A model generated the notes under the pieces. It was not told where the DNA came from, did not search any database, and was given only the letters and a program-made list of their open reading frames with translations. Shown here one piece after another: positions 4,876 through 40,066 of a DNA stretch of 46,078 nucleotides. Position 1 is the first letter of the stretch. Each line of letters starts with the position of its first letter. The DNA comes from a virus. The translations under genes and the position numbers were made by a program. Location of the stretch: the IMG/VR virus record IMGVR_UViG_3300044679_000230, positions 1 to 46,078 of that record; one strand, given 5' to 3'.

Positions 4876-4883
4876 CTAAATAC
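4876..4883 (+). promoter_or_regulatory. TAAATA-type late promoter, leaderless class
   Basis: CTAAATAC, 3 nt before ATG 4887, no Shine-Dalgarno in range. If TAAATA acts as a -10 element, transcription would start at about the ATG. Confidence 0.7.
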
Positions 4884-4886
4884 GGC

Positions 4887-5591
4887 ATGCCCGATCCCAC
4901 AACCCCCGCAAAAGACCTGACCCTCCCTACCGTAAACGGCGATAGCAGCGATTGGGGCGGGCTCATCAATACAAATTTCAGCGCCATCGATACCGCGCTC
5001 GGCGGCACGCTAGCGCTGTCAATCTCCGGCAATACCACCCTCACGACGACTCAAGCTGCGAGCACCGGATACACATTCACCGGGACGCTATCGAGCCCGG
5101 CGACAATCACGTGGCCCGCCTTCTTCGGCATGCTCGCGATCACGAATTCGACCACGGGCGGACAGTCGATCACATGTGGAATTTCGGGTGGCGGAGAGAC
5201 CGTCGTCGCGTTGAGCGGCGAGACGACCGTCGCGTGGTCTGACGGGACAAACTTCATTCGTATGTCCGGCACGGGTGGTGCGATCCCCATCGCGGCTGGC
5301 AATGGTACCGCTGCCGGGTACGTCGCCAAGTCGGGTCCTGGTCTTCTGTATTGGGTTCGAGGCGATGCCAGCGGCGGCAGTGGTTGGCTGATGGTCTTCG
5401 ATGCGACAAGCGTGCCTGCGGACGGCGCTGTAGAGCCAGTCCTGTCCTTCCCAATCAACCCGTGGGGATCGCTTAGCGAGTGCGCCGCGCCGATGGCATT
5501 CCTAAACGGCATCGTAGTCGTCTTCTCCACGACCGGGCCTATGACGAAGACAGGATCAACCAGCGCCTTTCTATCGTGGAGGGTTCAATGA
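4887..5591 (+). CDS. phage surface/tail protein
   Basis: 234 residues, Ser/Thr/Gly-rich beta structure typical of phage fibre-associated proteins. The N-terminus (LPTVNGDSSDWGGLINTNF) resembles the start of many tail-fibre-type proteins. The C-terminal 75 residues (WLMVFDATSVPADGAV, then NGIVVVFSTTGP and TK) repeat in the next gene, so this is a shared module. First gene of a late unit; the start is set by the octamer 3 nt upstream. Confidence 0.7.
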   Translation: MPDPTTPAKDLTLPTVNGDSSDWGGLINTNFSAIDTALGGTLALSISGNTTLTTTQAASTGYTFTGTLSSPATITWPAFFGMLAITNSTTGGQSITCGISGGGETVVALSGETTVAWSDGTNFIRMSGTGGAIPIAAGNGTAAGYVAKSGPGLLYWVRGDASGGSGWLMVFDATSVPADGAVEPVLSFPINPWGSLSECAAPMAFLNGIVVVFSTTGPMTKTGSTSAFLSWRVQ

Positions 5592-5592
5592 C

Positions 5593-5922
5593 ATGGCTCA
5601 TGGAGCTTCCACCGCCCTTGAGGGTGCTCACATTATCAAGTCGAGCGCCGGTATTCTTTCAAACCTATACATAGCCGGGTCACTCAGCAGCGGCTATTTG
5701 ATGGTCTTCAACTCGGCGACTGTTCCCGCCGATGGTGCCGTGACTCCGGTAATAAGCCTGAATTTGGCTATTACCGGCCCCGCGCCCGGTGTCTTCAATG
5801 GCATCAATTTTGACAATTACCCGGCCTATTTCAGCAACGGGATTGTCGCTGTCTACTCGACTACCGGCCCCTACACGAAGACTGAAGCGGCGGATGCCTA
5901 TTTTAATTGGGATGCCGAGTAG
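5593..5922 (+). CDS. small phage surface protein, paralog of the preceding C-terminus
   Basis: 109 residues. YLMVFNSATVPADGAV, FSNGIVAVYSTTGP and a final W match the C-terminal module of the preceding protein, so it looks like a stand-alone copy of that domain. GGAGGG lies 10 nt before the ATG, and the gene begins 1 nt after the previous stop, so it is cotranscribed. Exact function unknown; a virion accessory or fibre-tip role is inference. Confidence 0.65.
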   Translation: MAHGASTALEGAHIIKSSAGILSNLYIAGSLSSGYLMVFNSATVPADGAVTPVISLNLAITGPAPGVFNGINFDNYPAYFSNGIVAVYSTTGPYTKTEAADAYFNWDAE

Positions 5923-5924
5923 TC

Positions 5925-6089
5925 ATGTTGGGGTTTGGACCGATTTCATCAGCACCTATTTCGGCTGAACCAGCGCGCTCTTTCTGGGGCGTGCAATGGG
6001 ATCGTCTTCTCTCGGTTGGCCGATCTGGTTTCAGGCCGATCAAGTGGATCGGGCGGAGCTTGGCCGGATGGATAGACGGCCTGACGTAA
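5925..6089 (+). CDS. very small phage protein
   Basis: 54 residues beginning MLGFGPISSAPIS. Short proteins with this kind of N-terminus are common in alphaproteobacterial phages between structural genes; function unknown. It starts 2 nt after the preceding stop and its stop overlaps the next start (TAATG), so translation is probably coupled. Confidence 0.5.
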   Translation: MLGFGPISSAPISAEPARSFWGVQWDRLLSVGRSGFRPIKWIGRSLAGWIDGLT

Positions 6090-6384: not shown

Positions 6385-6392
6385 CTAAATAC
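6385..6392 (+). promoter_or_regulatory. TAAATA-type late promoter, leaderless class
   Basis: CTAAATAC, 4 nt before ATG 6397; no Shine-Dalgarno. Follows a likely terminator, so it should open the head-gene unit on its own. Confidence 0.72.
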
Positions 6393-6396
6393 GGAC

Positions 6397-7368
6397 ATGA
6401 AGTCCGTAGCAAAACTCGCGAATGACATCGCCCCGATTGTCCGGGGTGACAACACCTACACCTTCGTCTTCTCGGATGGGCAGATCGATCGTCAGGGTGA
6501 TCGGGTCAATCCGGATGGCTGGGTTCTCGACGACTTCGAGAAGAACCCCGTCGTCCAGTGGTGCCACGATTGGGAAAGCCCGCCGATCGGTCGCGCCAGC
6601 AACGTCCGGGTCGAAGATGACCGGCTGCTCGGCGACATCACCTTCGCGGACACCCCGTTCGCACAAGAGGTTCGCTCGCTCGTGGAGGGCGGTTTCCTCC
6701 GGGGTGTGAGCGTCGGCTTCCAACCCCTCGAATACGAATACAGCGCCGATCCGGACCGCAATAAGGACATCGAGCGCCAAGCCCTGCTCGAAGTCTCCCT
6801 CGCGCCGATCCCCGCGAACCCCCGGTGTCTCATCGAGGCCAACGGCAAGGGTCTCAGCACCCCCACGATTACCGCGTGGATAACGAAGCGTGCTGCCGAC
6901 AAGCGGATACCGGCAGACGAGCGGGCCATCCTGAAGAGTCTCCTAAATACCCGCACCGAAGAAAAAGAATTTTCGACCGAGGAAATTACCCTGATGGCAT
7001 CAGCCCAAATCCTGAAACTGGCACGCGGCGAAATTAAGCGCGCAAACGCCGAGATCAACCGGCTCCGGGCGCGGTTCAAGTCCGATGACGACATGGACGA
7101 TGAAGAGAAGGACGAGCACGAGGACCCGGACATTCATCTGAAGACCGCTGCCGCGCACTTCAAGGCGGCTGACGAGCTTCACGATGCCGCCTACGAGCAC
7201 CACGAGGAAGGGATGAAGTGCATCACCCGGTGCATCAAGGCGCTCGGCGACGGCGAAGACAACGAGCCGGACGGTGAAGTCGAAAAAGACGAGTCCGAAG
7301 ACGACGCCGATGCAGAGATCGAGAAGATTCTCGCTCGCGGCACCGCAAAGTATCTGCGCGGTAAATAA
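6397..7368 (+). CDS. prohead maturation protease with scaffold-like C-terminus
   Basis: 323 residues. Residues about 20-150 match the caudovirus prohead serine protease: QIDRQGDRVNPDGW, then NPVVQWCHDWESPPIG with the His of the catalytic site, GVSVGF with the Ser, and LLEVSLAPIPANP. The C-terminal half is helical and strongly acidic, like a scaffold (delta) domain. The protease would process capsid and scaffold during head assembly. First gene of the head operon. An internal octamer (6943) and an internal ribosome site with ATG 6994 suggest a nested scaffold product. Confidence 0.9.
   Translation: MKSVAKLANDIAPIVRGDNTYTFVFSDGQIDRQGDRVNPDGWVLDDFEKNPVVQWCHDWESPPIGRASNVRVEDDRLLGDITFADTPFAQEVRSLVEGGFLRGVSVGFQPLEYEYSADPDRNKDIERQALLEVSLAPIPANPRCLIEANGKGLSTPTITAWITKRAADKRIPADERAILKSLLNTRTEEKEFSTEEITLMASAQILKLARGEIKRANAEINRLRARFKSDDDMDDEEKDEHEDPDIHLKTAAAHFKAADELHDAAYEHHEEGMKCITRCIKALGDGEDNEPDGEVEKDESEDDADAEIEKILARGTAKYLRGK
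6943..6950 (+). promoter_or_regulatory. internal TAAATA octamer in the protease gene
   Basis: CTAAATAC inside coding sequence, 43 nt before an in-frame internal ATG (6994) that has a good GAGGAA site. It could give a separate scaffold transcript, or it may be chance. Confidence 0.35.
6994..7368 (+). CDS. putative nested capsid scaffold
   Basis: In-frame internal start within the protease gene: GAGGAA at 6979-6984, 9 nt, ATG. It would give a 124-residue, helical, highly acidic protein (MASAQILKLARGEIKR onward) with no protease residues. Phage lambda makes its scaffold Nu3 from an internal start of the protease gene C, which is the precedent. The ribosome site is seen; production of the protein is inference. 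Confidence 0.45.
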   Translation: MASAQILKLARGEIKRANAEINRLRARFKSDDDMDDEEKDEHEDPDIHLKTAAAHFKAADELHDAAYEHHEEGMKCITRCIKALGDGEDNEPDGEVEKDESEDDADAEIEKILARGTAKYLRGK

Positions 7369-7401
7369 GAAGAGTTTCAAGGGAGGCAGCAGTGCCCATC
7401 A

Positions 7402-8616
7402 ATGTCCGACGTAGCACGTATTCAGGCTCAAATCGCAGCGCTTCAGGAAGAACTCGTCACCGAGTCTGAGCGGCCTAATTTCTCCCCCGAGAAGTTCGGG
7501 AAGATCGAAAAGAAGATCAACCAGCTTGCCGAGCAGAAGAGCGCGATGGACCGCGCCCGCGAGGTCCTCGCACAGAAGGCACAGCCATCCCGCAACAACG
7601 GTGAATGGTCGTACGGCGAGATGCTTCAGGCGGTCATGAGGGCCGGGACGAAGGGAGCAATCGACTCCCGATTGTCCAAGGCCGGCATCGCCGAGTCCGA
7701 TCCCGCGTCCGGCGGCTTCGCCATCCAGCCCGAACTAGCCGCTTGGATTTACGAGCGCATGTATCAGGAAGGCCAGTGGCTCAAGCGCTGTGACCATACC
7801 CCGATCGCCACCAACACGAACGCCCTCAAGATCACCGCCGTCCAGGACTCAAGCCGCGTCGTCGGCAGCCAGTACGGCGGCGTCTATGCGGTTTGGCTTC
7901 AGGAAAACGGCACGATCACCGAGAGCGAGCCGAAGTATCGGCAGGTTTCTTTCGACCTGAAGAAGCTCGCCGCTTTCTGGGGCGTCACCGATGAAATGCT
8001 CGCTGATGCGGCGGTCCTGACCTCGAAGGCTCCGGAATATTTCGAGCGCGCGATGCGCTTCCAGCTTGAGGACTCGATCGTTCGAGGAACTGGTGCGGGT
8101 CAGCCCCTTGGCTTCCTGAACAGCCCCGCGCTGGTCACGGCGACCGCCGATAAGGGACAGGCCACCAAGACGATCACCTTCAACAACATCCTGAACATGC
8201 TCACCCACACGTGGGGTGCGCTGTCGGATTACTGCTGGTTCGCCAACGCGGACACCTACGCGCAAATCCTGAGCATGTCTCAGCAGATGGGCACGGCGGG
8301 TCAGTCCATGTTTTGGGCTGGTGGTGGCGTGAATGCGCCGGGCGCGACCCTCGCCGGTATCCCGCTCGTGTTCACCGAGCAGTCCTCAACCCTCGGCTCT
8401 GTCGGCGACTTTGTGCTCTGCAACATGAAGGAATTCATGGTCGTCGATAAGTCGAGCCCACAGATGATGGCTTCGCCGCACGTCTACTTCCAGCAAGACA
8501 AAATGGCCTATCGGCTTGTCGGTCGCTTCGACGGCCAGCCGATGTGGGAACAGCCGCTCACCCCCGCTCAGGGTTCGAGCCTGAAGTCCCCGTTCATCGC
8601 CCTGGCCGCACGTTAA
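7402..8616 (+). CDS. major capsid protein, HK97 fold
   Basis: 404 residues. A helical, charged N-terminal region (about 1-75, delta-like) is followed by the HK97-type capsid core: SDPASGGFAIQPELAAWIY, then FDLKKLAAFWGVTDEMLADA, FERAMRFQLEDSIVRGTGAGQPLGF in two parts and a C-terminal KMAYRLVGRFDGQP. These are typical of the phage major capsid family. The start is the ATG 15 nt after GGGAGG; the nearer GTG 7392 is out of frame. Forms the icosahedral shell; follows the protease as in HK97. Confidence 0.92.
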   Translation: MSDVARIQAQIAALQEELVTESERPNFSPEKFGKIEKKINQLAEQKSAMDRAREVLAQKAQPSRNNGEWSYGEMLQAVMRAGTKGAIDSRLSKAGIAESDPASGGFAIQPELAAWIYERMYQEGQWLKRCDHTPIATNTNALKITAVQDSSRVVGSQYGGVYAVWLQENGTITESEPKYRQVSFDLKKLAAFWGVTDEMLADAAVLTSKAPEYFERAMRFQLEDSIVRGTGAGQPLGFLNSPALVTATADKGQATKTITFNNILNMLTHTWGALSDYCWFANADTYAQILSMSQQMGTAGQSMFWAGGGVNAPGATLAGIPLVFTEQSSTLGSVGDFVLCNMKEFMVVDKSSPQMMASPHVYFQQDKMAYRLVGRFDGQPMWEQPLTPAQGSSLKSPFIALAAR

Positions 8617-10891: not shown

Positions 10892-10899
10892 GTAAATAC
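10892..10899 (+). promoter_or_regulatory. TAAATA-type late promoter, hairpin class
   Basis: GTAAATAC within CGCTCGGTAAATAC, a 14-mer also present at 11870 and 25867. Its end is in the left arm (10898-10905) of a hairpin before the next gene. Confidence 0.65.
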
Positions 10900-10920
10900 C
10901 TGGAAGAATTATTTCCAGGT
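10898..10920 (+). promoter_or_regulatory. ribosome-site-masking hairpin
   Basis: ACCTGGAA (10898-10905) pairs perfectly with TTCCAGGT (10913-10920), whose AGGT is the likely Shine-Dalgarno 7 nt before ATG 10928. A transcript starting about 6 nt after the octamer (near 10905) would lack the left arm and leave the site open. Confidence 0.6.
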
Positions 10921-10927
10921 TTTCTGA

Positions 10928-11791
10928 ATGGCTAACTACGTCATTGCGACTAATTCCGTTCCTCTGAACGAAGCCGATACCGCACCGGGTTCCGGGACCT
11001 CTCAATATTTCACAGACGGCAATCCGGCGACTGGTCAACTCGCTACCGTCGTCCCCGGCTACTGGCTCAATATGGTCCAGGCGGAGATCGTCAATCTGAT
11101 TATCGCCGGAGGCGTCACCCCCTCGGTCAGCGATTGGCAGCAAGTATGGCAGGCGGTCCTCGCCAGCCACACATTCATGGACACGTCGGGGACGGCGAAC
11201 GAGATCATAGTCGCCGCACATTCCCCGCTCACCGTGGATGCGCTGATCCCCGGCCAGGAAGTCACCATCATGGTCGCCAATGCCACGACTGGCAGCGCTG
11301 TCAGCCTGAACTTCGGCGGCATCACCAAGCCGGTCCAGCGGTGGAACGGCTCGAACCTCCAAGAGAACGACCTGCTCGCCAACGTGGCCTATCGTTTCAT
11401 CTACACGAGCGCAAACGTCTGGAAGTGGTTCACCGATTTCGGTCCGCTCATCGCGACATTCGCGTGTCCGCTGATGGGTTGCCCAAGCGGCCAGCCAATC
11501 GAAGTATTCCTGGGTAGCGGTCTCACGATGACCGGCAACGTGCTGTCTGCTGTGGGTGGACCTCCGCCTGTCTCGCCGCCTGTGTCGTCGCCTCCTGTGA
11601 GCCCGCCGGTCAGTCCGGTCGCGCCGCCGGTAAGCCCCCCGGTATCGCCACCCGTGACCCCTCCGGTGTCACCGCCGGTATCGTCGCCCCCGGTCAGTCC
11701 TCCGGTCTCGCCACCCGTCTCCCCGCCTGTCTCTCCGGTCGGCGACGGGTTCGACTGCGGAGATTGCGGAGATGATGATGATGATGCGTAA
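10928..11791 (+). CDS. phage surface protein with proline repeats and acidic Cys tail
   Basis: 287 residues. Residues 1-210 are a paralog of the preceding protein (WLNMVQAEIV, SHTFMDTSGTANEII, LTVDALIPGQEVTI, GSGLTMTGNVLSAV). Then come about 60 residues made of PPVSPPVS-type repeats, ending in a short acidic tail with two cysteines (DCGDCG, then five Asp). The repeat would form an extended stalk and the tail a possible metal or partner site. First gene after a hairpin-class octamer. Likely a fibre or virion-surface component; exact role unknown. Confidence 0.65.
   Translation: MANYVIATNSVPLNEADTAPGSGTSQYFTDGNPATGQLATVVPGYWLNMVQAEIVNLIIAGGVTPSVSDWQQVWQAVLASHTFMDTSGTANEIIVAAHSPLTVDALIPGQEVTIMVANATTGSAVSLNFGGITKPVQRWNGSNLQENDLLANVAYRFIYTSANVWKWFTDFGPLIATFACPLMGCPSGQPIEVFLGSGLTMTGNVLSAVGGPPPVSPPVSSPPVSPPVSPVAPPVSPPVSPPVTPPVSPPVSSPPVSPPVSPPVSPPVSPVGDGFDCGDCGDDDDDA
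11563..11745 (+). repeat. in-frame proline-valine-serine repeat
   Basis: Tandem degenerate 9-12 nt units coding for PPVS and PPVSPPVS variants, in the C-terminal part of the surface protein. Units differ at third positions, so the amino-acid pattern is what is kept. Repeat number could vary between isolates. Confidence 0.8.
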
Positions 11792-11875: not shown

Positions 11876-11883
11876 GTAAATAC
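11876..11883 (+). promoter_or_regulatory. TAAATA-type late promoter, hairpin class
   Basis: GTAAATAC in the same CGCTCGGTAAATAC context as at 10886. Overlaps the left arm of the hairpin before the baseplate gene. Confidence 0.65.
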
Positions 11884-11902
11884 CTCGTACTCTTCGAGGT
11901 AT
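11880..11902 (+). promoter_or_regulatory. ribosome-site-masking hairpin
   Basis: ATACCTCG (11880-11887) pairs with CGAGGTAT (11895-11902). GAGGT in the right arm lies 9 nt before the TTG start at 11910. The predicted start of transcription (near 11889) is after the left arm. Confidence 0.6.
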
Positions 11903-11909
11903 TACGGAG

Positions 11910-13082
11910 TTGCCGTTTCAGCGTCCTACTATCCAGCAGATAATCCAGCAAAATCAGGCACAGATACTTTCGTATCTGCCGGGAACTAATCCTTATCTTC
12001 CGGGCAGCGATCTTCAAATCCTCGCCTATGTTCTCGCTGGTCTTCAATATCTCCGCTACGGGTATCTAGATTGGATTGCCCAACAGGCCATTCCAGTCAC
12101 CGCGACCGGCGAGTCCCTGTCGGCGTGGGCGGCTCTCAAAGGGCTTCAGCTTGAAAGCGCCACACCCGCCACGGGCTCCGTCCAGTTCTCCGGGACCCCC
12201 GGCGCGACCATTCCCGATCTCACCATCTTGGTCCGGGCGGATGGATACCTCTACGCGATCCCCACCGGGTTCGGCGGCACCATCGGCGGCGGCGGGACCT
12301 TCTCCACGACTGCCGTCGCGACGACTGCCGGGATCGCCTCGAACTTCGTCACTGGTTCGCCCTACTCGACGCTACAGCTTCAGACCTCACTCTCGGGTGT
12401 TCTCAACACCGTCTCGGTCACCTCGAACTTCACGGGCGGCGCAGATGTAGAGACCGAGGACAGCCTCCGTACCCGGCTCATCGAGCTTTTCTCGAACCCG
12501 CCGCAAGGTGGCTGCCTTGCCGACTACGTGACATGGGCGCTCGCCGCGACCCCGGCGATCACGCGAGCTTGGTCAGCCGGACCGCCCGTCATGGGACCGG
12601 GCTCGGTCAGCGTCTATTTCATGGAGGATGAGATCGAAGCCGCCTACTCCGGTGTCCCGCAAGGCGACAACGGGGTCAGCACCTATGAAAGCCGAGGTAC
12701 GACCGCGACCGGCGATCAGCTCATCCTAGCGAACGCGCTGTATAACCTGCGTCCGGCAACGGCGATCGTCTATGCGATGGCACCGAGTGCGGTTGCGATC
12801 CCGATCACGCTTGCCGAAGTCCCCGTCAACGCAACGATCCGCTCGGCGATCTCCACCGCGTACTCTAGCTTCTTCATCATGAATGCCAGCCCGGTCGGTG
12901 TGCTTCTTCCCGATCTGACGGCGGGCGGTACGGTGCGCCTGTCCGAGCTATACGATGAGATCAGCGCGGTCAGCGGGCTCGACTACTTCGAGATCACGTC
13001 CTGGAATAGCACCACCCCGGCGGATATCACCCTGAGCGAGACAGGCCAGATCGCCATTCCCGGTTCAATATCATATGTATAG
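11910..13082 (+). CDS. baseplate assembly protein J (Mu gp47-like)
   Basis: 390 residues. Matches the baseplate J family: N-terminal LPGTNPYLPGSDLQILAYV segment and YLDWIAQQAIPVTATGE, a central SGTPGATIPDLTILVRADG, then ADVETEDSLRTRLIELFSNPPQGG and DYVTWALAATPAITRAWS. It builds the wedge of contractile-tail baseplates. The TTG start is chosen because GAGGT, in the hairpin arm, is 9 nt upstream. No ATG lies near the conserved N-terminus. Confidence 0.88.
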   Translation: MPFQRPTIQQIIQQNQAQILSYLPGTNPYLPGSDLQILAYVLAGLQYLRYGYLDWIAQQAIPVTATGESLSAWAALKGLQLESATPATGSVQFSGTPGATIPDLTILVRADGYLYAIPTGFGGTIGGGGTFSTTAVATTAGIASNFVTGSPYSTLQLQTSLSGVLNTVSVTSNFTGGADVETEDSLRTRLIELFSNPPQGGCLADYVTWALAATPAITRAWSAGPPVMGPGSVSVYFMEDEIEAAYSGVPQGDNGVSTYESRGTTATGDQLILANALYNLRPATAIVYAMAPSAVAIPITLAEVPVNATIRSAISTAYSSFFIMNASPVGVLLPDLTAGGTVRLSELYDEISAVSGLDYFEITSWNSTTPADITLSETGQIAIPGSISYV

Positions 13083-15265: not shown

Positions 15266-15640
15266 TTACGAGCTAACAGTGCCTTCGGTGATGGTTTCTG
15301 CCGCGAATGACAGTTCCATCGTGGCCTCGGACTCGTTCACGACCGGCTGTTCCATCAGGTCTGCGTTCGTCATCGTCAGCGTCTTGCCGTTCGCGAGTAC
15401 CGCGACGATCGTGGCGTTGGTCAGGTTCGAGTAGAAGGACAGCGGGGTATCGGACTGATCCCGCCCCTCAAACTTCAACGTCGCGGGCATCAGCGTTTGC
15501 TTGAAGCCCGGATACGGGTCCGACATGCTGGTGAGGGGTTCGTTTCGGAAGTTCTGCGAAGTCCAGGTGAAGTTACCGACGACCTCTACCGTGTTTCCAT
15601 TGATTGTAATATTGGCTACACCAGCCAGACGATTTGCCAT
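15266..15640 (-). CDS. tail tube protein
   Basis: 124 residues. RLAGVANITINGNTVEVVGNF and QTLMPATLKFEGRDQSDTPLSF in two parts fit the Mu gpM / P2 FII-type tube family. The C-terminal MTNADLMEQPVVNESEATMELSFAAE is also typical. It polymerises inside the contractile sheath. First gene of a minus-strand unit with a hairpin-class octamer at 15674-15681. Confidence 0.8.
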   Translation of the reverse strand: MANRLAGVANITINGNTVEVVGNFTWTSQNFRNEPLTSMSDPYPGFKQTLMPATLKFEGRDQSDTPLSFYSNLTNATIVAVLANGKTLTMTNADLMEQPVVNESEATMELSFAAETITEGTVSS

Positions 15641-15653
15641 TAGACGATAAAAC

Positions 15654-15674
15654 CTCGGAGATATTGTCTCCGAG
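15654..15674 (-). promoter_or_regulatory. ribosome-site-masking hairpin (tail tube)
   Basis: Read on the minus strand, CTCGGAGA (15674-15667) pairs with TCTCCGAG (15661-15654); GAG plus the next G forms the likely Shine-Dalgarno 12 nt before ATG 15640. Pairing may extend through flanking ATAAA/TTTAT. Predicted transcription start near 15668 removes almost all of the left arm. Confidence 0.58.
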
Positions 15675-15681
15675 TATTTAT
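15674..15681 (-). promoter_or_regulatory. TAAATA-type late promoter, hairpin class
   Basis: ATAAATAC on the minus strand, upstream of the tail tube gene. Faces away from the octamer at 15729, so the two form a divergent pair. Confidence 0.65.
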
Positions 15682-15728: not shown

Positions 15729-15736
15729 GTAAATAT
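15729..15736 (+). promoter_or_regulatory. TAAATA-type late promoter, leaderless class
   Basis: GTAAATAT, 5 nt before ATG 15742, no Shine-Dalgarno. The octamer sits in a short palindrome, GGTAAATATTACC (15728-15740). Confidence 0.68.
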
Positions 15737-15741
15737 TACCG

Positions 15742-17949
15742 ATGACCGACAAGGGATATATCTTACCCATTGGGGTAGCCGACGCCGCGAGCACCGCGAT
15801 CAAAAACATCAACCAAACGCTGAAGGACCTTCAGCGCACGGTGAAGGACGCGAGCGGTGCGACTGATGACGCGACCCGGAAGGACAAAAACCGCTTCGAC
15901 GGGCTCAACAAGGGCATCAGCGTTTTCGCGAAAAACGCGCGGACCGAACTGCTCGCGCTGACCAAGAACTTCGCCTCCGTCGAAGGCAAGATTGGCAAGA
16001 CGATCGAGACCTTCGGCAAAGCCTTCGATCTCGGTGGGCTCGCGATCGGCGCGGGATTGGCGATCAAAGCGGTCGAAGGAATCGCCGACGCCTACCGCAG
16101 CGCCGCGAAGGAAGCTCAGAGCCTCCTACAAGTCGGCGCTCGAACCGGGCTCCGCCAAGGGCCGCTTCAGCAATTCCAGGCGTTCACCAACCTCGCCGGT
16201 CTCAATCCAGGCGATGCCGACAAGATGCTTCAGTCGGTCGCGACCTGGAAAATGCAGGCGAAGCAGTTCGCGCTCGATCCCAAAATTCAGACCCTTCTTC
16301 GGCTCTCCGGTGCGGACATCAACAAGGATGACGCCGATACGGTCATCTACAAGGTTCTCAATGCGGCTAGGAATAATCGAAATGGGCTGAGTGCGGCGGG
16401 GATGTTCCCCGCTCGGATCGGTCAGGCACTCGGCGTCGAGGACTTCGACCGGCTCGTCCAGATGCCGAAGGATATGTTCGATCGCATCCTCGAAGACTCG
16501 AAGAACGTCGCGATCGAGAGCGACAAGACCCTCGATACATTCCGCCGCATGGACCTGATGGTGCATGAGTGGGAGCAGGTCTTCCACAACATCACCACGG
16601 ACATCAAAAACGCACTCGGGAGCCTCGGTCCTGGAGGTGCGCTAGCGGTTGGCGGCATCGGCGCGGTCGGTGGCGGATTGCTCGGCGGTCTTCTCGTCAA
16701 GCGTCTGCTTGGCGGCGTACTCGGGTGGCTCGGCAAGTCCCTCGGCCTTGCCAGTGCGGCAGACGTTGGTGCGGCAACTGGAGCCGCAGCCGGTGCTACG
16801 GGCGCTGAAGTCGCTGCTGGTATCGGCTTCCTCGCATGGCTCGGTAGTATCGCCGGAACCGGCGCACTCGGCGCGGTCGGTGGCTGGTTTGCCCATCATT
16901 TGGGACCGGAAGCAGCAGGCACCGCGACCGGAGGAACCTACGATAATCCAGGTATGACGCCGTATGGGATGCCGAGCGTTGATGAGACCCGCAAGGCACT
17001 CACACCGCCGACAGCACCCGGTCCGAACACCCAACTCGACAATATCAAAAAGGCTATCCAGCTAACCGAGTCGGCGAACGGCTACAACAGTGTCCCATTG
17101 CCGGGTCATTCGGCCACCGGCCCGATGCAGATCATGCCGGATACGTGGGTTCAGTATGCCCACCCCGGCGAGCGCATCAGCAATCCGGAAGACAACATCC
17201 GCGTCGGCAATCGGATCATCGACCATCTCGCGGCAATCTACGGCAACGACCCCGACAAGATCGCCTATGCGTATGCGAATGGCTCGATCACGTCGCCCGA
17301 TCGTAACCCCGGCTACGTCGCCAAATTCCGCAAGAACTTCGATTCACTCGGCACGGCTGCGCCAGCAGCCGTAAATGGGCTTGTCGGGGCGATCGAGGGT
17401 CTACCGGAATTTCAGCGGCATCAGCAGCTATCCAATTATTGCGCCCGACTCGTGAACATGGCTCTCACCAAGGTCGGTCTGCCGCCAATCACGGACAAAT
17501 TCGGTCACGTCTCCAATGTTGCGACCGACGCTTCCGGTTGGGGCACGGGGGTCGCCCCGGATCAAGGTCAAGCTGGCGATCTCGGCGTCGATATGTATGG
17601 GCATGGCCGGGGCGAACTCGGTGGTCATGTCGGCGTGCTGACGGGTCGTAAACGGCCCGATGGCAAGGGTGGCTGGGAATACGAGTTCGATTCATCTCAT
17701 CGGCTCGGAGATGCCGGTACGGGTGCCGGAACCGATTGGCGGCATCTCGATCTGATTCGGCGCGCGCCGAACGTCGCGCCTGATCCGTCTACAGTCGCCA
17801 AGCAGAAGCAAGACGACGACAACAAGTCCAGCCACGAGGTCACCGTCAGCTTCGCGAACATGCCGTCCGGTGCGCGAGCGAACGTCAGTCAGGCCAGTGG
17901 CGATGCGAACCTCAACCTGCGTACGAGATACGCGATGAACGTGGTCTGA
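15742..17949 (+). CDS. tape measure protein with lytic transglycosylase and CHAP/NlpC-like domains
   Basis: 735 residues. The N-terminus is helical and coiled-coil-like (to about 280), then there are hydrophobic Gly/Ala stretches (about 295-395). Residues about 433-533 are a soluble lytic transglycosylase (SLT) domain: LTESANGYNS with the catalytic Glu near 442, GPMQIMPDTW, NIRVGNRIIDHL and AYANGS. Residues about 557-640 look like a Cys-His peptidase/amidase: NYCARLVNMAL with Cys near 566 and ELGGHVGVLTG with His near 628. It sets tail length and probably opens the cell wall at infection. It is short for a tape measure, so a short tail is expected. Confidence 0.85.
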   Translation: MTDKGYILPIGVADAASTAIKNINQTLKDLQRTVKDASGATDDATRKDKNRFDGLNKGISVFAKNARTELLALTKNFASVEGKIGKTIETFGKAFDLGGLAIGAGLAIKAVEGIADAYRSAAKEAQSLLQVGARTGLRQGPLQQFQAFTNLAGLNPGDADKMLQSVATWKMQAKQFALDPKIQTLLRLSGADINKDDADTVIYKVLNAARNNRNGLSAAGMFPARIGQALGVEDFDRLVQMPKDMFDRILEDSKNVAIESDKTLDTFRRMDLMVHEWEQVFHNITTDIKNALGSLGPGGALAVGGIGAVGGGLLGGLLVKRLLGGVLGWLGKSLGLASAADVGAATGAAAGATGAEVAAGIGFLAWLGSIAGTGALGAVGGWFAHHLGPEAAGTATGGTYDNPGMTPYGMPSVDETRKALTPPTAPGPNTQLDNIKKAIQLTESANGYNSVPLPGHSATGPMQIMPDTWVQYAHPGERISNPEDNIRVGNRIIDHLAAIYGNDPDKIAYAYANGSITSPDRNPGYVAKFRKNFDSLGTAAPAAVNGLVGAIEGLPEFQRHQQLSNYCARLVNMALTKVGLPPITDKFGHVSNVATDASGWGTGVAPDQGQAGDLGVDMYGHGRGELGGHVGVLTGRKRPDGKGGWEYEFDSSHRLGDAGTGAGTDWRHLDLIRRAPNVAPDPSTVAKQKQDDDNKSSHEVTVSFANMPSGARANVSQASGDANLNLRTRYAMNVV

Positions 17950-23702: not shown

Positions 23703-23719
23703 GGAGCATTGTCACACTG

Positions 23720-24684: not shown

Positions 24685-24691
24685 TAACGCC

Positions 24692-25822: not shown

Positions 25823-25826
25823 GCTC

Positions 25827-25872: not shown

Positions 25873-25880
25873 GTAAATAC
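25873..25880 (+). promoter_or_regulatory. TAAATA-type late promoter, leaderless class
   Basis: GTAAATAC, 4 nt (GAGC) before ATG 25885, in the CGCTCGGTAAATAC context shared with 10886 and 11870. Confidence 0.75.
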
Positions 25881-25884
25881 GAGC

Positions 25885-26562
25885 ATGAGTAAGCCCTTCT
25901 ACACGACACTCCGAGTGGACACCGCGCCAGCCTCCGAACCCGTCACGGTCCAACAGGCGAAGCAGTATTGCCGGATATACCAACACGGCTATGACGATCT
26001 TATCGGCTCACTCATCACGGTCGCCCGGACCACGGTCGAAAACTACTTATCTCGCGCCCTGATCGAGCAAACACTCGCCTGGACCGTAAAGACGATCCCC
26101 GAAGATACGAACCCCTACGGAGCCGGAGCCGCGTATGCGGCAGAGCTTGGTTGGTGGTTCGGGACCGCCGGCCACCGCACCGATACCTTCGAGCTTCCAC
26201 GGGCTCCGGTCGCATCGGTCAATCTGGTGTGCGTGCTCGATCATACGGGCACTCAAACCGCACTCACCGACGATTGCTACTTCTGCGATACCGACCTCGA
26301 TCCAGCCCGGCTCGCCATCTATTGGTGGAAGGTCCGGGAGCTTCCCGAACCCCCTACGGGACGCATCCAGCACATCTGGTTCAACATCACATGCGGCTAC
26401 CCCACCGGCACGATCCCGGTGCCGATCACCCAGGCGATCCTTCTGCTCGTGAACTACCTATTCGAGCGCCGTGGGGATGAAGTCACCGATACGGACATCC
26501 CATCCGCGATCTGGCATCTACTGAACCCCTATAAGATCGAGTTCTTCGGCAGCACGCCGTAA
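25885..26562 (+). CDS. head-tail connector (HK97 gp6-like)
   Basis: 225 residues. The gp6 family features are EPVTVQQAKQYCRIYQHGYDD near the start, then LIGSLITVARTTVENYLSRALIEQ and TQAILLLVNYLFERRGD. This ring-forming connector joins portal and tail. First gene of its unit, leaderless-class start. Confidence 0.82.
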   Translation: MSKPFYTTLRVDTAPASEPVTVQQAKQYCRIYQHGYDDLIGSLITVARTTVENYLSRALIEQTLAWTVKTIPEDTNPYGAGAAYAAELGWWFGTAGHRTDTFELPRAPVASVNLVCVLDHTGTQTALTDDCYFCDTDLDPARLAIYWWKVRELPEPPTGRIQHIWFNITCGYPTGTIPVPITQAILLLVNYLFERRGDEVTDTDIPSAIWHLLNPYKIEFFGSTP

Positions 26563-26594: not shown

Positions 26595-26602
26595 CTAAAT
26601 AC
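26595..26602 (+). promoter_or_regulatory. TAAATA-type late promoter, leaderless class
   Basis: CTAAATAC, 4 nt (CTTC) before ATG 26607, no Shine-Dalgarno. Confidence 0.75.
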
Positions 26603-26606
26603 CTTC

Positions 26607-26921
26607 ATGTTAAAGGTAAAGCCGCGAGACGGCCTGAAAATCCGCGATCCGCAGCGCGGTGACTTGATCGAACCCGAAGGCCGCATGGTCCCGCGCACCA
26701 CGTACTGGCTTCACCGCCTCCGTGACCGCGATGTCGTCCTATTGGCGGACGAGCCGGACGAGAAGAAGACCGAGGTCATCACCAAGGCGCGGAAGCCTCG
26801 CTCTGCGGAGCAGAAGCAGCGGCAGCCCGCCTCCGGCGATCAGACCGGCGCAGCCGGGCAGCCACAGACCATAAACGTCACGGTCAGTGAAGCACTCGAC
26901 GCACAAGATCATACAGCCTGA
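26607..26921 (+). CDS. DUF2635 protein (Mu gp38-like)
   Basis: 104 residues. LKVKPRDGLKIRDPQRGDLI and PEGRMVPRTTYWLHRLRDRDV are the DUF2635 signature; this small gene precedes the sheath gene in Mu-like phages, as here. Function unknown. The last 50 residues are charged and variable. Confidence 0.8.
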   Translation: MLKVKPRDGLKIRDPQRGDLIEPEGRMVPRTTYWLHRLRDRDVVLLADEPDEKKTEVITKARKPRSAEQKQRQPASGDQTGAAGQPQTINVTVSEALDAQDHTA

Positions 26922-28712: not shown

Positions 28713-28720
28713 CTAAATAC
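28713..28720 (+). promoter_or_regulatory. TAAATA-type late promoter, leaderless class
   Basis: CTAAATAC, 4 nt (CCCT) before ATG 28725. Directly after a strong terminator with no room for another -35/-10 promoter, so it is the best single argument that the octamer is itself a promoter. Confidence 0.8.
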
Positions 28721-28724
28721 CCCT

Positions 28725-29333
28725 ATGCCACTGCTCAGCACGACGCCCTTCGCGGCATCCCTTCAACCGGCGAGTTTTAGAGGAATACCCTTCCAGGCCG
28801 TGGGCGCGACGATCCGATCGGGCCAGCGCGCAGCGGTCCATGAGTACCCGTATCGAGATACGCCCCTCACGGAGCCGCTCGGCAAGAGTGCGCGGCAATA
28901 CGTCGTGGAAGGCTTCCTCGTTGGGGACGATGTAGCAGCGCAGTACCAGAACCTCCTTACGGCGCTCGAAGCGGACGGTCCGGGGACGCTCGTACATCCG
29001 GTTTTCGGACAGCTTCAGGTCGTGGCCCTGCCGATCTCGGAGACCGAGCAGAACCTCGCAGGCCGATACGTCAGCTTCCGGCTGATCTTCGTCGAAGCGG
29101 GGAGCGTGCTCTATCCGACCACCGGCCAGGACAGCCAAGCCGACACGATCAATGCGGCGGCGATGGCACAGAACAACAGCAGCTTCAGCAACGATGTCAG
29201 CGGCGGCAGCCTGCCGCCTGCTTCCACCATGAGCCCGCCAGCGGCCAATGAGAACACGCCGAGCCAGACCTACAACGATCTCGGCGACGCCGCCGTCACC
29301 ACCAACACCACCGGGTTCGAGGCCGCTGCATAA
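28725..29333 (+). CDS. Mu gpN-like DNA circularisation protein, N-terminal part
   Basis: 202 residues. ASFRGIPFQAVGATIRSGQRA, YPYRDTPLTEPLGKSARQY, VVEGFLVGDDVAAQYQNLL and GTLVHPVFGQLQV match the N-terminal domain of the Mu gpN/DNA circularisation family, a tail/baseplate protein injected with DNA. The family usually continues into a C-terminal helical domain; here this is a separate gene overlapping at TAATG. Confidence 0.82.
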   Translation: MPLLSTTPFAASLQPASFRGIPFQAVGATIRSGQRAAVHEYPYRDTPLTEPLGKSARQYVVEGFLVGDDVAAQYQNLLTALEADGPGTLVHPVFGQLQVVALPISETEQNLAGRYVSFRLIFVEAGSVLYPTTGQDSQADTINAAAMAQNNSSFSNDVSGGSLPPASTMSPPAANENTPSQTYNDLGDAAVTTNTTGFEAAA

Positions 29334-30516: not shown

Positions 30517-31908
30517 TCAGATACTTGGCGCGCGATCGTCAGGATCATCGGCGGGGGTATCGGGAGCGCCTTCATCCCCATCACCACCACGCGCCGGGCG
30601 TCCGGATTGATCGCTGCCGATCCCAGCATCCGACTCATTCTGCTGCGGCAGCGTCCCCAACGGGACCATATTGGCGGGCACATAGATGAGATCGCCATCC
30701 GGGACCGGCGGCAGGCCGTTGGCTGCGCGGTTCTCATTGACGGTGAAAACCGAGCCGGTAAAGCCGAGATTGGCCGTGTTGATGCGGGTCTGAAGATCGG
30801 CCTTGAACATGCCCTCGAAGTCGAACGCGATCTCATAGTCATCGGCGTCGATCTCGAACTGCTTGTAGAGCGTTTGCACCATCCGCTCGGTATAGCTGGA
30901 CAGGCAGCTATTGAAATACTCGGTCTCTAATTGCACGAGACCGGATGCCGCCTCCGACTTATCAGCGATCCCGAGCTTGCTCAGCGGGACCCGGAAGTAG
31001 CGGGCGATCTGCTCGACCTGGAAGCGGGATTGCTCGACGAATTGCGTATCGACGAACGACAGCATCGCAGACTGGAATTCCGCACCCACCGGGAGCACTC
31101 CAAGCCCACCCGTATTGCGCGGTCCGGAGAAGGTCTCGTTCCATGCCGCCTGAATACGCTCGATCGTCTCTTTGCCCTGGACGCCGGGCTTGTCCGGGAC
31201 CTGCCGCTTGATGAACCCGGAGAGTCGGCTGCCCTGGCCGACGAAACGCGATGACGCTTCCTCAAGACCGAGGGCGAGGCCGATCTGCTCCTTTGCGAGC
31301 AGCACCCGGTTAGTGCCAAAGAGGCCGTTGATGTAGGAGAGCCATTTGAAGTGAAGCACGTCGTCGCGATGAATGCTCATCGGCATGTCGCGGAGTACGG
31401 CGAGTTCGTGCAATCCCTGCCGGGACACGTTGTAGAACCACGAGTTCGGGTCCTCGGCGGTTTCGCGCAGTTGCACGTGCTGCGCGTTGATCGGGATTAG
31501 GGCGACCGGTACGCCAGCACCGTCACGGAGGATGACCGCATAGGCATTGCCATTGACGATCAGATTGACGAGCGTGAACTCACAGAAGTCGTGCCATGTC
31601 TGGTAGTCGTTCGGCGATCGGAACAGCCGACTCAGATAATGGTTTTTTGCTAGGCGCTTCTTTCCATTCTCCAACTTCTCGTACAGCCGGATCGGCAGCT
31701 TCGCGATGTCTGACGAGATGATCTGGACGCACGCGAGTACGACCGACTGCTGAAGCGCGCTGATCTCGTTGACCGGCACGCCCGCGACGGTCTGCGAGTA
31801 CCCGAGACCGAACCACCCATCGAGGTCTTCGTAGGACTTCTTTTGCGACCGGAAGAATGTTGATCGAGATGGTCGGAAGAATTCGACCAAAGGCGTTAAA
31901 ATACTCAT
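30517..31908 (-). CDS. portal protein, HK97 type
   Basis: 463 residues. VNEISALQQSVVLACVQIIS, IAKLPIRLYEK, HYLSRLFRSPNDYQTWHDF, LVNLIVNGNAYAVILRD, FEGMFKADLQTRINTANLGF and NENRAANGLPPVPDGD are the classic portal pattern. It forms the dodecameric DNA gate. The acidic, Pro-rich C-terminus (about 425-463) is variable in the family. Leaderless-class start. Confidence 0.92.
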   Translation of the reverse strand: MSILTPLVEFFRPSRSTFFRSQKKSYEDLDGWFGLGYSQTVAGVPVNEISALQQSVVLACVQIISSDIAKLPIRLYEKLENGKKRLAKNHYLSRLFRSPNDYQTWHDFCEFTLVNLIVNGNAYAVILRDGAGVPVALIPINAQHVQLRETAEDPNSWFYNVSRQGLHELAVLRDMPMSIHRDDVLHFKWLSYINGLFGTNRVLLAKEQIGLALGLEEASSRFVGQGSRLSGFIKRQVPDKPGVQGKETIERIQAAWNETFSGPRNTGGLGVLPVGAEFQSAMLSFVDTQFVEQSRFQVEQIARYFRVPLSKLGIADKSEAASGLVQLETEYFNSCLSSYTERMVQTLYKQFEIDADDYEIAFDFEGMFKADLQTRINTANLGFTGSVFTVNENRAANGLPPVPDGDLIYVPANMVPLGTLPQQNESDAGIGSDQSGRPARGGDGDEGAPDTPADDPDDRAPSI

Positions 31909-31912
31909 GTTG

Positions 31913-31920
31913 ATATTTAG
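31913..31920 (-). promoter_or_regulatory. TAAATA-type late promoter, leaderless class
   Basis: CTAAATAT on the minus strand, 4 nt (CAAC) before ATG 31908. With 31950 it forms an inverted repeat, CGCTAAATAT on each side of 26 nt. Confidence 0.75.
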
Positions 31921-31949: not shown

Positions 31950-31957
31950 CTAAATAT
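31950..31957 (+). promoter_or_regulatory. TAAATA-type late promoter, leaderless class
   Basis: CTAAATAT, 4 nt (TCTT) before ATG 31962, no Shine-Dalgarno. Confidence 0.75.
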
Positions 31958-31961
31958 TCTT

Positions 31962-33512
31962 ATGTCGATAGCCTCCCCGATCTGGGTAAACCAGACTTCC
32001 GAAACCACTGGACTTGATGCCTATAATCTTGATGCGCCCAGCACGGAGTATCTGAGCTTCCGGTCGCGCTATGCGAATAGCGCTCGTGTTCCATTTGTGG
32101 CTACTGACGGCAGCAACTTCGAGGTGGGCATCGGGCGGCTCGTCTACGGGTCACCCGATCAGATCACCCGAGATATCATCGTCTCATCCTCGAACGCGGG
32201 ATCGGCGGTTAGCTGGCTCACCGGCACTCGTCAGGTCTACGCGTTCGAGCTTTCAGGGTCCGCGTACCCGCTCCCGTTCACGATCGGGTTCACGCTCGAT
32301 CAGTCCTATTGGGGCAGCGATCTCGTCTTCACCGGCAACGAGCCGCAGACGCTCACCCTGCCCGCCTTGAACACGGTACCCGCCGGGTGGGCATTCACCC
32401 TGAAGAACTCATCCAACGCGCTGCTCACCCTGGCTCCGCAAGACACCGATCAGATTGAGAACTTCGGCACCGGCTCCGAGTGGATCGTGCCGCCCGGCGC
32501 GGGCGCACAGGTCACACCCGATCAGACTAGCGTGCTGTGGCGGCTGATCTCGATCACCCCGCCAAAGGCAGGCATCGGCAACGTCACCGACTTCACGAGC
32601 GATGTGACCGCGCATGTCTCGTCCTGGAATAACGTCTACATCTTCACCGGGTCATCGGCGGCATCGCTGACCTTGCCGGTCTTTGACGATGTGCCTGATG
32701 GCTATCTGATCGAGCTAAAGAACGACGGGACAGCGCCCGTCACGATCATGCCCGCCGATACGGGCACCGACGCGATCGAGGACCTCGGCGCTGGCGTCGG
32801 CTTTACCGTCCATTGCAATGCCAGCATGCAAATCCGTCCCGATCATACGGTGTGGCGGATTCTTCAAACCTTCCCGCACGGTTACGACCGGGTGACCGTC
32901 GTCACGGCGTCCGGGACCGTGACGCCTGCGCTCAACCAGTCCGTCATTGTCATCAACAAGACGGTTCCTGCCGCGACCGCCGTGACGCTTCCGACGAGTC
33001 CGCCAGTCGGTAAGACCTACTCGATTATCGACGGCGCGGGTAACGCGAACACCTACAACATCACCCTTTCCGGCTCCGCGAACATCGACGGCTCGGCAAC
33101 CTACGTCGTATCGACGAATTGGGGCTCTGCGGCCCTGATCTGGAATGGCACGATCTGGAACGTTCTGAACCGTGTCGTCCCCGCGCCCTCGAACACGCAG
33201 CCCATTCGCGTAATCACGTCGGGATCGTCCGTGACGGCGACAGACTCCGATGGCGTTATCGTGATGAATTTGGGGACGCCCGCCGCATCCACCGTGGCCC
33301 TTCCTGCGTCGCCGCTGACCGGCCAGTCGATCACCGTCGTGGACGGCGCGGGAAATGCCTACACCTACAACATCACCGTTACGGCGAGTGCCACGATCAA
33401 TGGGAATTCGTCGTGGACGATCGGGTCCAACTACAACGCGGTCACGTTCGCCTATAACGGTTCGACCTGGAATGTAATCAACCGCTTCACCAACGGCGCA
33501 TTTGGATTGTGA
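31962..33512 (+). CDS. tail fibre-like / surface protein with repeats
   Basis: 516 residues. The N-terminus (DRPS-free but with EVGIGRLVYGSPDQITRDII and SSSNAGSAVSWLTGTRQVYAF) is a common phage fibre-attachment domain. Later there are two repeats of about 85 residues, each with DGAGNA, TYNIT, a Ser/Ala strand and YNG or WNG followed by WNVINR or WNVLNR, typical of fibre shafts. It would bind host surface or decorate the virion. Single-gene unit. Confidence 0.75.
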   Translation: MSIASPIWVNQTSETTGLDAYNLDAPSTEYLSFRSRYANSARVPFVATDGSNFEVGIGRLVYGSPDQITRDIIVSSSNAGSAVSWLTGTRQVYAFELSGSAYPLPFTIGFTLDQSYWGSDLVFTGNEPQTLTLPALNTVPAGWAFTLKNSSNALLTLAPQDTDQIENFGTGSEWIVPPGAGAQVTPDQTSVLWRLISITPPKAGIGNVTDFTSDVTAHVSSWNNVYIFTGSSAASLTLPVFDDVPDGYLIELKNDGTAPVTIMPADTGTDAIEDLGAGVGFTVHCNASMQIRPDHTVWRILQTFPHGYDRVTVVTASGTVTPALNQSVIVINKTVPAATAVTLPTSPPVGKTYSIIDGAGNANTYNITLSGSANIDGSATYVVSTNWGSAALIWNGTIWNVLNRVVPAPSNTQPIRVITSGSSVTATDSDGVIVMNLGTPAASTVALPASPLTGQSITVVDGAGNAYTYNITVTASATINGNSSWTIGSNYNAVTFAYNGSTWNVINRFTNGAFGL

Positions 33513-33878: not shown

Positions 33879-33886
33879 GTAAATAC
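33879..33886 (+). promoter_or_regulatory. TAAATA-type late promoter, hairpin class
   Basis: GTAAATAC forming the left part of a hairpin before GTG 33917. Confidence 0.65.
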
Positions 33887-33911
33887 CCCGCAACATTTTC
33901 TCGGGGTTTAC
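33879..33911 (+). promoter_or_regulatory. ribosome-site-masking hairpin
   Basis: GTAAATACCCCG (33879-33890) pairs with CGGGGTTTAC (33902-33911), with TA bulged. GGGGT in the right arm lies 9 nt before the GTG start. Predicted transcription start (near 33892) is just past the left arm. Confidence 0.62.
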
Positions 33912-33916
33912 TACAG

Positions 33917-34216
33917 GTGTTCGACACACTCAATAACTTCAACGCAAACTCGGCATCGTTTCTTGCGCATCTGGAAAAACTTCCGGACCCGCCGAGTGTC
34001 GAAGACGCCGATCTGCTCACGTCGCTCATCAAGTCGTTGGGCTACTTCGCGGACGGTTTTCGGCTGCTCGCTCAGCTTGCCAACGAGCGCAACGATCCGG
34101 ACCGCGACACGACCGCCTCTACCGCGAGGGCAATCGCCGCACGGATCGAGCATCGGCGGGACCAGTACGCGCGGCGGCTTCTCGCACTCACCCCGCATGG
34201 CGGGCTGCCGAATTGA
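33917..34216 (+). CDS. hypothetical phage protein
   Basis: 99 residues from GTG 33917, helical (FLAHLEKLPDPPSVEDADLL, then RAIAARIEHRRDQYARRL). No family recognised. First gene of the packaging unit, under a hairpin-class octamer. Confidence 0.6.
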   Translation: MFDTLNNFNANSASFLAHLEKLPDPPSVEDADLLTSLIKSLGYFADGFRLLAQLANERNDPDRDTTASTARAIAARIEHRRDQYARRLLALTPHGGLPN

Positions 34217-39124: not shown

Positions 39125-39228
39125 GACCCCATGTACTCTCCATGCAAAAGGGTTGCGGTTGTACTCTTCCAATCTTCGTCTTCCGTGATAGCCGCTCGGA
39201 CCTAATCCTTCCGAGCGGTTTTCTTTTT
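39117..39228 (+). ncRNA. candidate antisense RNA over the replication gene start
   Basis: About 110 nt between octamer and terminator, covering the first codons and ribosome site of the DUF3987 gene on the opposite strand. It includes a possible 20-codon frame (ATG 39123 to TGA 39186) with no known product. Confidence 0.4.
39192..39228 (+). terminator. intrinsic terminator (plus strand)
   Basis: Perfect 9-bp stem CCGCTCGGA (39192-39200) and TCCGAGCGG (39210-39218), followed by TTTTCTTTTT. The T-run is on the plus strand only, and no annotated plus-strand gene ends here. Confidence 0.85.
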
Positions 39229-39579
39229 GATCCAGTCGATGACGACGGCTGGATCGTAGTAGTAGAACTTCCCGAACTTGCGAGCGGCGGGTCCGGTGCC
39301 GAGTGAATGAACCCGCGCGAGGGCGCTGATCCCGATCCGGAAGCCGTCTGCGCGGAGCCGATCGGTCATCTCTCGCCGGGTCAACCATCCAACTGGCGGC
39401 ACCTGCTCTCGCGCCCACGCCGCCGCCGATCGCCAGCAATAGAAAATCGGTCGCCCGATCCGCTGACATGCCGGTCCTTTCCCCCGGTAGGAGAGGTTGG
39501 CAAGTTCATGATGGGAAATCTCGAAGAATTGGCGGCTGATCTCCCGCGCCGTCTGCTCCCGCGTCAACAAATCATCCAT
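39202..39579 (-). CDS. double helix-turn-helix protein (excisionase-like)
   Basis: 125 residues from ATG 39579. Two similar halves each have a HTH pattern and an aromatic wing: LTREQTAREISRQF with RPIFYCWRSAAAWARE, and LTRREMTDRLRADG with KFGKFYYYDPAVVIDWIKK. This resembles MerR-type HTH_17/AlpA/excisionase proteins in tandem. Could be an excisionase or regulator. Upstream of and co-directional with the replication gene. Confidence 0.65.
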   Translation of the reverse strand: MDDLLTREQTAREISRQFFEISHHELANLSYRGKGPACQRIGRPIFYCWRSAAAWAREQVPPVGWLTRREMTDRLRADGFRIGISALARVHSLGTGPAARKFGKFYYYDPAVVIDWIKKKTARKD

Positions 39580-39661
39580 CTTTGGCACACCTGATCCCTC
39601 GCTATTTGCTCGATACTTACACGTATATAGGCCAAACATCTTGCCGAGCGACAAGTTTGAG

Positions 39662-39669
39662 ATAAATAC
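39662..39669 (+). promoter_or_regulatory. TAAATA-type late promoter, leaderless class
   Basis: ATAAATAC, 4 nt (ACTC) before GTG 39674, no Shine-Dalgarno. The only leaderless candidate with a GTG start. Confidence 0.62.
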
Positions 39670-39673
39670 ACTC

Positions 39674-40066
39674 GTGCCAGACCCAAAGATGACGATAGAC
39701 GATATTCGGGATTTCACCCGCTGCATGCGCCGCACTACTTCAACGGACGATGCAGAGGTATTAGAGGCGGTCCAGGAGGCGAACCGGATACTCGATCGCT
39801 ACTCTTGTACTTGGGCGAGCTTCTGGTGGGATGTTGAGGCCGCTATCCGGTATCGGCTGCAAACCACGATGCCGACTGTGGACGATGCGTTCGAGGAACT
39901 GCTCGCGACGCTCCGACCGGGGAGCTACCGCGAGTTCATCGCCGGGATGCAGAAGCAGTGGGAAACGCGGCGTCGCCTGAGCGACCGTCAACGGGAGCTT
40001 CTCGATGATGCGCTACACGACGCAAATATTCGGCTGTGGCCGAGATTTATTGATTGGGAGAGATAA
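39674..40066 (+). CDS. hypothetical helical phage protein
   Basis: 130 residues from GTG 39674, almost all helical and acidic (TIDDIRDFTRCMRRTT, then VLEAVQEANRILDRY). No family recognised. A TTG at 39641 would precede the octamer and is less likely. Followed by 40076. Confidence 0.6.
   Translation: MPDPKMTIDDIRDFTRCMRRTTSTDDAEVLEAVQEANRILDRYSCTWASFWWDVEAAIRYRLQTTMPTVDDAFEELLATLRPGSYREFIAGMQKQWETRRRLSDRQRELLDDALHDANIRLWPRFIDWER

Follow-up and report, generated by a model that had tools for sequence, protein, structure and literature searches.

We found that a single short element, [ACG]TAAATA[CTG], stands before the virion genes of a small temperate phage and is likely to be a T4-type late promoter. 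The anatomy of the promoter is shown. The factor that reads it, its lateness and its effect on translation are inferred, and the proposed mechanism as a whole, although likely, is offered without mapped 5' ends.

The window, that is, the whole stretch of DNA analysed, is IMG/VR record IMGVR_UViG_3300044679_000230, a prophage-like element of 46,078 bp and 60% GC. Its left end contains the following genes:

821..2893, minus strand: host glutamine-dependent NAD synthase, in the alphaproteobacterial left host flank
3270..4703, plus strand: integrase (PHROG phrog_1, E 3.6e-7), without an upstream motif

The NAD synthase is 71% identical to that of the nearest alphaproteobacterial genome sampled, and we consider the phage temperate because it has an integrase. 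The virion set is complete. On the head side it includes a prohead protease, HK97-type capsid, portal, TerS, HNH-fused TerL and adaptors. On the tail side there are a sheath, tube, SLT-domain protein (the probable tape measure), DNA_circ, Mu-like hub, gp45-, gp46- and gp48-like proteins, baseplate J and fibres. These genes are spread across both strands in about 18 units. The right part of the window encodes DUF3987, DUF3631, a SprT-like protein and a small XRE regulator. Neither a right attachment site nor a right host flank was found in the window, and the record may therefore be cut at 46078. Rfam and tRNA scans of the window were both empty, a simple scan found no sigma-70-type promoter in the early region, and no endolysin or holin family was recognised across 1-46078, the SLT domain of the 735-aa protein aside.

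Several other features of this DNA were observed. TerL (34935-37019) has an N-terminal HNH domain fused within one open reading frame; the HNH gene is separate in related phages. Two related HNH-type genes (19069-19785 and 22973-23626) are inserted among the tail genes, and only one has a late promoter. At its C-terminal end the fibre-like protein encoded at 10928-11791 has both a long proline-rich repeat (PPVSPPVS...) and an acidic tail. Before the early region, at 41165-41330, CCGATTTTCGTTGAC occurs three to four times, in either orientation, in an arrangement like that of iterons or operators.

The TAAATA hexamer occurs far more often than expected. There are 25 matches on the two strands, compared to 3.7 +/- 2.0 expected from dinucleotide shuffles, and none of 100 shuffles reached this count. 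TAAATA-N5-ATG is present seven times, compared to 0.05 expected, and the largest number in any shuffle was one. An additional site, at 39674, has the identical spacing to GTG instead of ATG. A preliminary description of the window had proposed a shuffle test of significance; this has now been done, and the excess is strong. Five of the 25 sites have no clear gene. Flanking the hexamer, only a preceding G or C and a following C or T were preferred. One copy, CTAAATAC at 6944, is inside the prohead protease gene and might serve an internal scaffold start as its promoter.

The gene-associated sites have no -35 element. That is, among these 20 sites no column between -42 and -3 relative to TAAATA exceeded 0.42 bits, and TTGACA-like matches upstream were at background level only. 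All 18 virion units have TAAATA on the coding strand no more than 71 nt upstream, compared to 0 of 12 non-virion or host genes used for comparison. These two counts are descriptive and not blind: the unit boundaries and the comparison genes were chosen with the motif known. Two non-virion genes outside the list of 12, at 22973 (minus) and 39674 (plus), do carry the element.

The T4 late promoter, TATAAATA, spans -13 to -6, and the variant CTAAATA of Aeromonas phage Aeh1 begins at -12 (PMC1524935). Based on this register in T4-like phages, the last A of TAAATA is at -6 and +1 falls six bases further on, so that TAAATA-N5-ATG puts +1 on the AUG. A start about 6 nt after TAAATA is strongly implied by the position of the AUG and by hairpins that such a start would disrupt, and we consider it likely.

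Twelve sites are close to a start codon. Each is read as a putative late promoter:

4876..4889, plus strand: CTAAATAC, 3 nt to ATG 4887, tail-fibre-like gene (PHROG tail fibre match)
6385..6399, plus strand: CTAAATAC, 4 nt to ATG 6397, prohead protease
15729..15744, plus strand: GTAAATAT, 5 nt to ATG 15742, 735-aa SLT-domain protein, probable tape measure; divergent from 15680 (minus)
21610..21625, minus strand: ATAAATAC, 5 nt to ATG 21612, baseplate hub, Mu gpP-like
24677..24694, plus strand: GTAAATAG, 7 nt to ATG 24692
25820..25834, minus strand: GTAAATAC, 4 nt to ATG 25822, head completion protein
25873..25887, plus strand: GTAAATAC, 4 nt to ATG 25885, head-tail adaptor; divergent from 25833 (minus)
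26595..26609, plus strand: CTAAATAC, 4 nt to ATG 26607, small protein upstream of the sheath gene
28713..28727, plus strand: CTAAATAC, 4 nt to ATG 28725, DNA_circ_N; an intrinsic terminator lies directly before it
31906..31920, minus strand: CTAAATAT, 4 nt to ATG 31908, portal
31950..31964, plus strand: CTAAATAT, 4 nt to ATG 31962, tail fibre; divergent from 31919 (minus)
39662..39676, plus strand: ATAAATAC, 4 nt to GTG 39674, 130-aa all-helical orphan

In 8 of these 12 units the predicted +1 coincides with the start codon's first base, and in the remainder it is 1-3 nt off. The mean anti-Shine-Dalgarno energy was -1.3 kcal/mol at the 12 start-proximal genes, compared to -5.2 at 23 other starts and -3.2 at random positions; the Shine-Dalgarno sequence is weaker at the 12 than at the other starts (Mann-Whitney p = 4.5e-4). 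The natural reading is that mRNA is leaderless at about 12 of the 20 sites, an inference from sequence alone, with no 5' ends mapped. Leaderless T4-type promoters appear to be undescribed in the literature that we searched.

The preliminary description had listed these twelve octamers, 3-7 nt from their start codons and exactly 4 nt in eight cases. It had also claimed that there is no constant -35 sequence, that these starts lack a Shine-Dalgarno sequence and that the octamer at 28713 directly follows a terminator, which is visible in the sequence. All of these claims held, the absence of a -35 for all 20 gene-associated sites. Its claim that the mRNAs are mostly leaderless held only in part, for about 12 of 20 sites and as an inference. 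The list was incomplete by about eight gene-associated sites, and a second device, a hairpin over the ribosome-binding site at four sites, had been missed.

The additional sites, about eight in number, are 7362, 10893, 11877, 21657, 23643 and 33880 on the plus strand and 15680 and 23701 on the minus strand. Their genes are not leaderless, and at four of them a hairpin sequesters the ribosome-binding site (RBS). Again as putative late promoters, they are:

7361..7404, plus strand: probable late promoter GTAAATAA, inside the protease gene at its 3' end; leader present, with a strong Shine-Dalgarno, ATG 7402, major capsid protein (Phage_capsid)
10892..10930, plus strand: GTAAATAC with RBS-sequestering hairpin CCTGGAA..TTCCAGG, ATG 10928, tail-fibre-like
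11876..11912, plus strand: GTAAATAC with hairpin CCTCG..CGAGG, TTG 11910, baseplate J
15640..15681, minus strand: ATAAATAC with hairpin CTCGGAG..CTCCGAG, extended by GATAAA/TTTATC, ATG 15640, tail tube
21656..21693, plus strand: GTAAATAT, leadered with a Shine-Dalgarno, ATG 21691; divergent from 21624 (minus)
23642..23722, plus strand: GTAAATAT, for the tail completion/neck gene at 23720; faces 23701 (minus)
23626..23702, minus strand: GTAAATAC, for the HNH-like gene 22973-23626
33879..33919, plus strand: GTAAATAC with hairpin CCCCG..CGGGG, GTG 33917, unit leading to TerS/TerL

The sites at 23643 (plus) and 23701 (minus) face each other, and transcripts of the HNH gene and the neck gene would overlap in antisense between 23626 and 23720. 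There are complementary arms between these two facing promoters.

The hairpins at 10893, 11877, 15680 (minus) and 33880 share one arrangement: a perfect stem of 5-8 bp begins at the first base after TAAATA and is followed by a T-run. A hairpin and T-run directly after TAAATA were found at 4 of 25 sites, compared to 0.07-0.22 expected. In read-through RNA the stem reaches over the promoter element (at 15680, GATAAA pairs with TTTATC) and covers the AGG, GAGG or GGGG that serves as the Shine-Dalgarno sequence. RNA begun at the T4-register +1 would start only after five bases of the 5' arm, and the hairpin would be lost. Predicted folds were -20 to -37 kcal/mol for full read-through RNA and -6.5 to -11 for RNA started at +1, and much of this drop is due to the shorter RNA. 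The predicted gain in Shine-Dalgarno accessibility was clear at 10893 and 11877 and weak at 33880, where the unpaired value in the fold was 0.26 for read-through and 0.35 for late RNA.

Late starts within a hairpin over the RBS are documented for T4 e, soc, 49 and I-TevI and for Aeh1 mobE (PMC2988022; PMC3014915). The defining property of the T4 gene e type, a hairpin in which the RBS is paired to sequence that precedes the late +1, is present at the four sites, with a weak effect at 33880. Because the predicted start would disrupt the hairpins, they are independent support for the start position.

We also considered that the hairpins and T-runs might be terminators. We do not favour this as the main reading, since most of the T-run is paired with TAAATA itself and no gene ends upstream of the tube-gene hairpin at 15680. 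The structures may still act in this way on read-through RNA.

In the mechanism that we propose, a single element at -12 to -6, without a -35, would be read by host RNA polymerase with a gp55-type specificity factor. Each of the virion units, which in this temperate phage are scrambled over two strands, has a copy of its own. Transcription would start about 6 nt past TAAATA. At about 12 units this would be at the AUG or within about 3 nt of it, giving leaderless or nearly leaderless mRNA, and at four other units it would be inside a hairpin that otherwise hides the ribosome-binding region. Both arrangements are inferred to allow translation only from RNA begun at the gene's own late promoter, and not from read-through RNA.

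The preliminary description had interpreted the motif as a T4-like single-element promoter that defines a late class and is read with a special sigma. The first part is supported wherever sequence can test it, including its presence at every virion unit. As to the second, the motif is absent from all 12 non-virion comparison genes, and lateness itself remains inferred. As to the third, the register matches that of T4, but the window encodes no recognisable gp55-like protein.

We found similar promoters in other phages. A DNA pattern search for divergent promoter pairs found jumbo contigs, among them G395; AT-rich contigs among the matches were probably due to chance. G395 is an uncultured 500-kb phage contig that encodes gp55 (E = 8.9e-25). 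It has 27 TAAATA-N5-ATG and 76 TAAATA-N4-ATG sites, 103 in all, compared to 0 in a reversed-pattern control, and in 95 kb of the contig 28 of 51 TAAATA sites were 4-5 nt before a start codon. G402 (152 kb) has 15 and 10 sites of the leaderless pattern (controls, 0 and 2), and a phrog_234 search found no gp55 in it. The leaderless pattern was not clearly above control in T4 or in five other phages with gp55, namely Delftia PhiW-14, S-CAM9, Moby, VH7D and Sinorhizobium phage Phosso. In T4 there were 10 sites compared to 5 in the control at N5, and 0 compared to 7 at N4; in Phosso the element is ~20-38 nt before ordinary leaders with a Shine-Dalgarno sequence. Four host-related genomes had no excess of TAAATA-N5-ATG. 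Since the excess is found in phage contigs and not in host-related genomes, the architecture is phage-specific. We conclude that leaderless T4-type promoters are a trait of a lineage and are not general.

In L199, L311-L314 (contig IMGVR_UViG_3300049988_000286, 500 kb) and L315, many proteins encoded behind leaderless late promoters start with MRxxxL/IxE (for example, MRYHELVE and MRNFIDIVNE), like the T4 capsid-targeting N-termini that are cut by the prohead protease.

Single-protein searches of viral_contigs with the sheath and portal found no close relatives of the phage, and the motif pattern was found in none of about 240 loci from alignment searches (about 160 sheath-related and about 80 portal-related). 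Conservation within the phage's own lineage could therefore not be shown. The closest relatives, L086 and L087, have sheaths of 39-43% identity and ordinary operons, without the motif. The sheath relatives, these two and phiKM1 included, have their virion genes in one-strand operons. The sample of the host family was only 7 genomes.

Which factor reads the promoters is not settled. In T4 it is gp55 (PHROG phrog_234). The window had no match to phrog_234, and hmmsearch --max with a profile of seven diverse phage gp55s gave a best E of 1.3. An AF2 model of the 39674 product was all-helical (pLDDT 80) and had no sigma-like structure match; AF2 gave no usable model of the 40076 product. None of 385 alphaproteobacterial genomes matched phrog_234, in a search without a positive control. 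Thus, one mark of a T4-type system, a phage-encoded gp55-type sigma, is not met in the available sequence, from a record that is possibly truncated.

It is possible that the phage has its own specificity factor, either a strongly diverged gp55 type or an unrelated protein, among its orphan proteins or just past the right end. This may as well be right as wrong. In its favour, the record may be cut, several orphan proteins are encoded in 39.6-46 kb, and phrog_234 also missed gp55 in the partial contigs G401 and G402, which have the leaderless motif. Against it are the failure of the sensitive search with diverse gp55s and the lack of any sigma-like resemblance in the 39674 product.

Alternatively, a T4-like or jumbo phage that co-infects the cell may provide the factor in trans, as a helper-dependent or spying late switch. 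The window has T4-type promoters and no recognisable gp55, gp55 phages with like promoters exist, and the alphaproteobacterial genomes had no phrog_234 match, with the caveat given above. However, unlike known satellites, the phage encodes an integrase, packaging genes and a full virion set of its own. In addition, the record may be incomplete, and no co-occurrence of the two phages has been shown. We regard a factor that is diverged or beyond the end of the record as more likely, and one supplied by another phage as less likely, if more interesting. A bolder reading is that this is a complete temperate phage without its own sigma, in which gp55 of an incoming T4-like phage triggers the lytic late phase, each gene being translated only from RNA of its own late promoter. 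This is unlikely but not excluded.

The remaining alternatives fare worse than the T4-type reading. TAAATA could be the -10 element of a host sigma factor, near start codons by happenstance, and alphaproteobacteria do contain leaderless genes. We consider this very unlikely: TAAATA-N5-ATG was at control level in the four host-related genomes, related prophages of such hosts lack the motif, and there is neither a -35 nor an extended element. It is also very unlikely that the motif is an operator or translation signal and not a promoter. In its favour, each hairpin site is an inverted repeat overlapping the motif, but the orientation of the motif follows the gene, the site at 28714 is directly behind a terminator, divergent pairs require two starts, and T4 precedent explains the hairpins. 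Finally, chance or composition (in a genome of 60% GC, intergenic DNA is marked by AT-rich words) is all but excluded by the excess over shuffles, none of which matched either the word or the spaced pattern, and by the fixed spacing and the empty reversed-pattern control in G395.

T4-type late transcription was previously described in large lytic phages that carry gp55. Here its promoter logic, together with the hairpin device, occurs in a small temperate phage whose virion genes are unrelated, which suggests that the system is mobile as a set of cis elements. Promoters for individual genes would also explain the shuffling of virion genes across both strands. In addition, one uncultured jumbo phage contig appears to have more than a hundred leaderless T4-type late promoters.

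By its virion genes the phage resembles the SfV/Mu-like myophages and Komagataeibacter phage phiKM1, with which it shares a homologous sheath, hub, DNA_circ (split into two genes in phiKM1), HK97-type capsid and TerL. In contrast to this phage, those have one-strand operons and no enrichment of TAAATA. The head and tail genes are not those of the Straboviridae or T4-like phages; the capsid, portal and TerL are HK97-type and the tail is Mu/SfV-like. By its promoters the phage resembles T4 (gp55/gp33/gp45) and Aeh1 (CTAAATA), which also have a single TAAATA-core element at -12 to -6, without a -35, before virion genes. It differs from them in that most starts are predicted to be leaderless, no gp55 was found, and the carrier is a 46-kb temperate phage with a Mu/SfV-type tail and an HK97-type head. 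The hairpins have the arrangement of T4 e, soc, 49 and I-TevI and Aeh1 mobE, in which the late promoter overlaps the 5' arm of an RBS-hiding hairpin and only late transcripts are translatable. Here the genes that would be controlled are virion genes (tail tube, baseplate J, fibre and the unit leading to terminase), beside leaderless units. G395 and G402, with genomes much larger than that of the window phage, share [ACG]TAAATA[CTG] 3-4 nt before ATG at dozens of genes; the preferred spacing in G395 is one nt shorter than in the window phage, and G395 encodes gp55.
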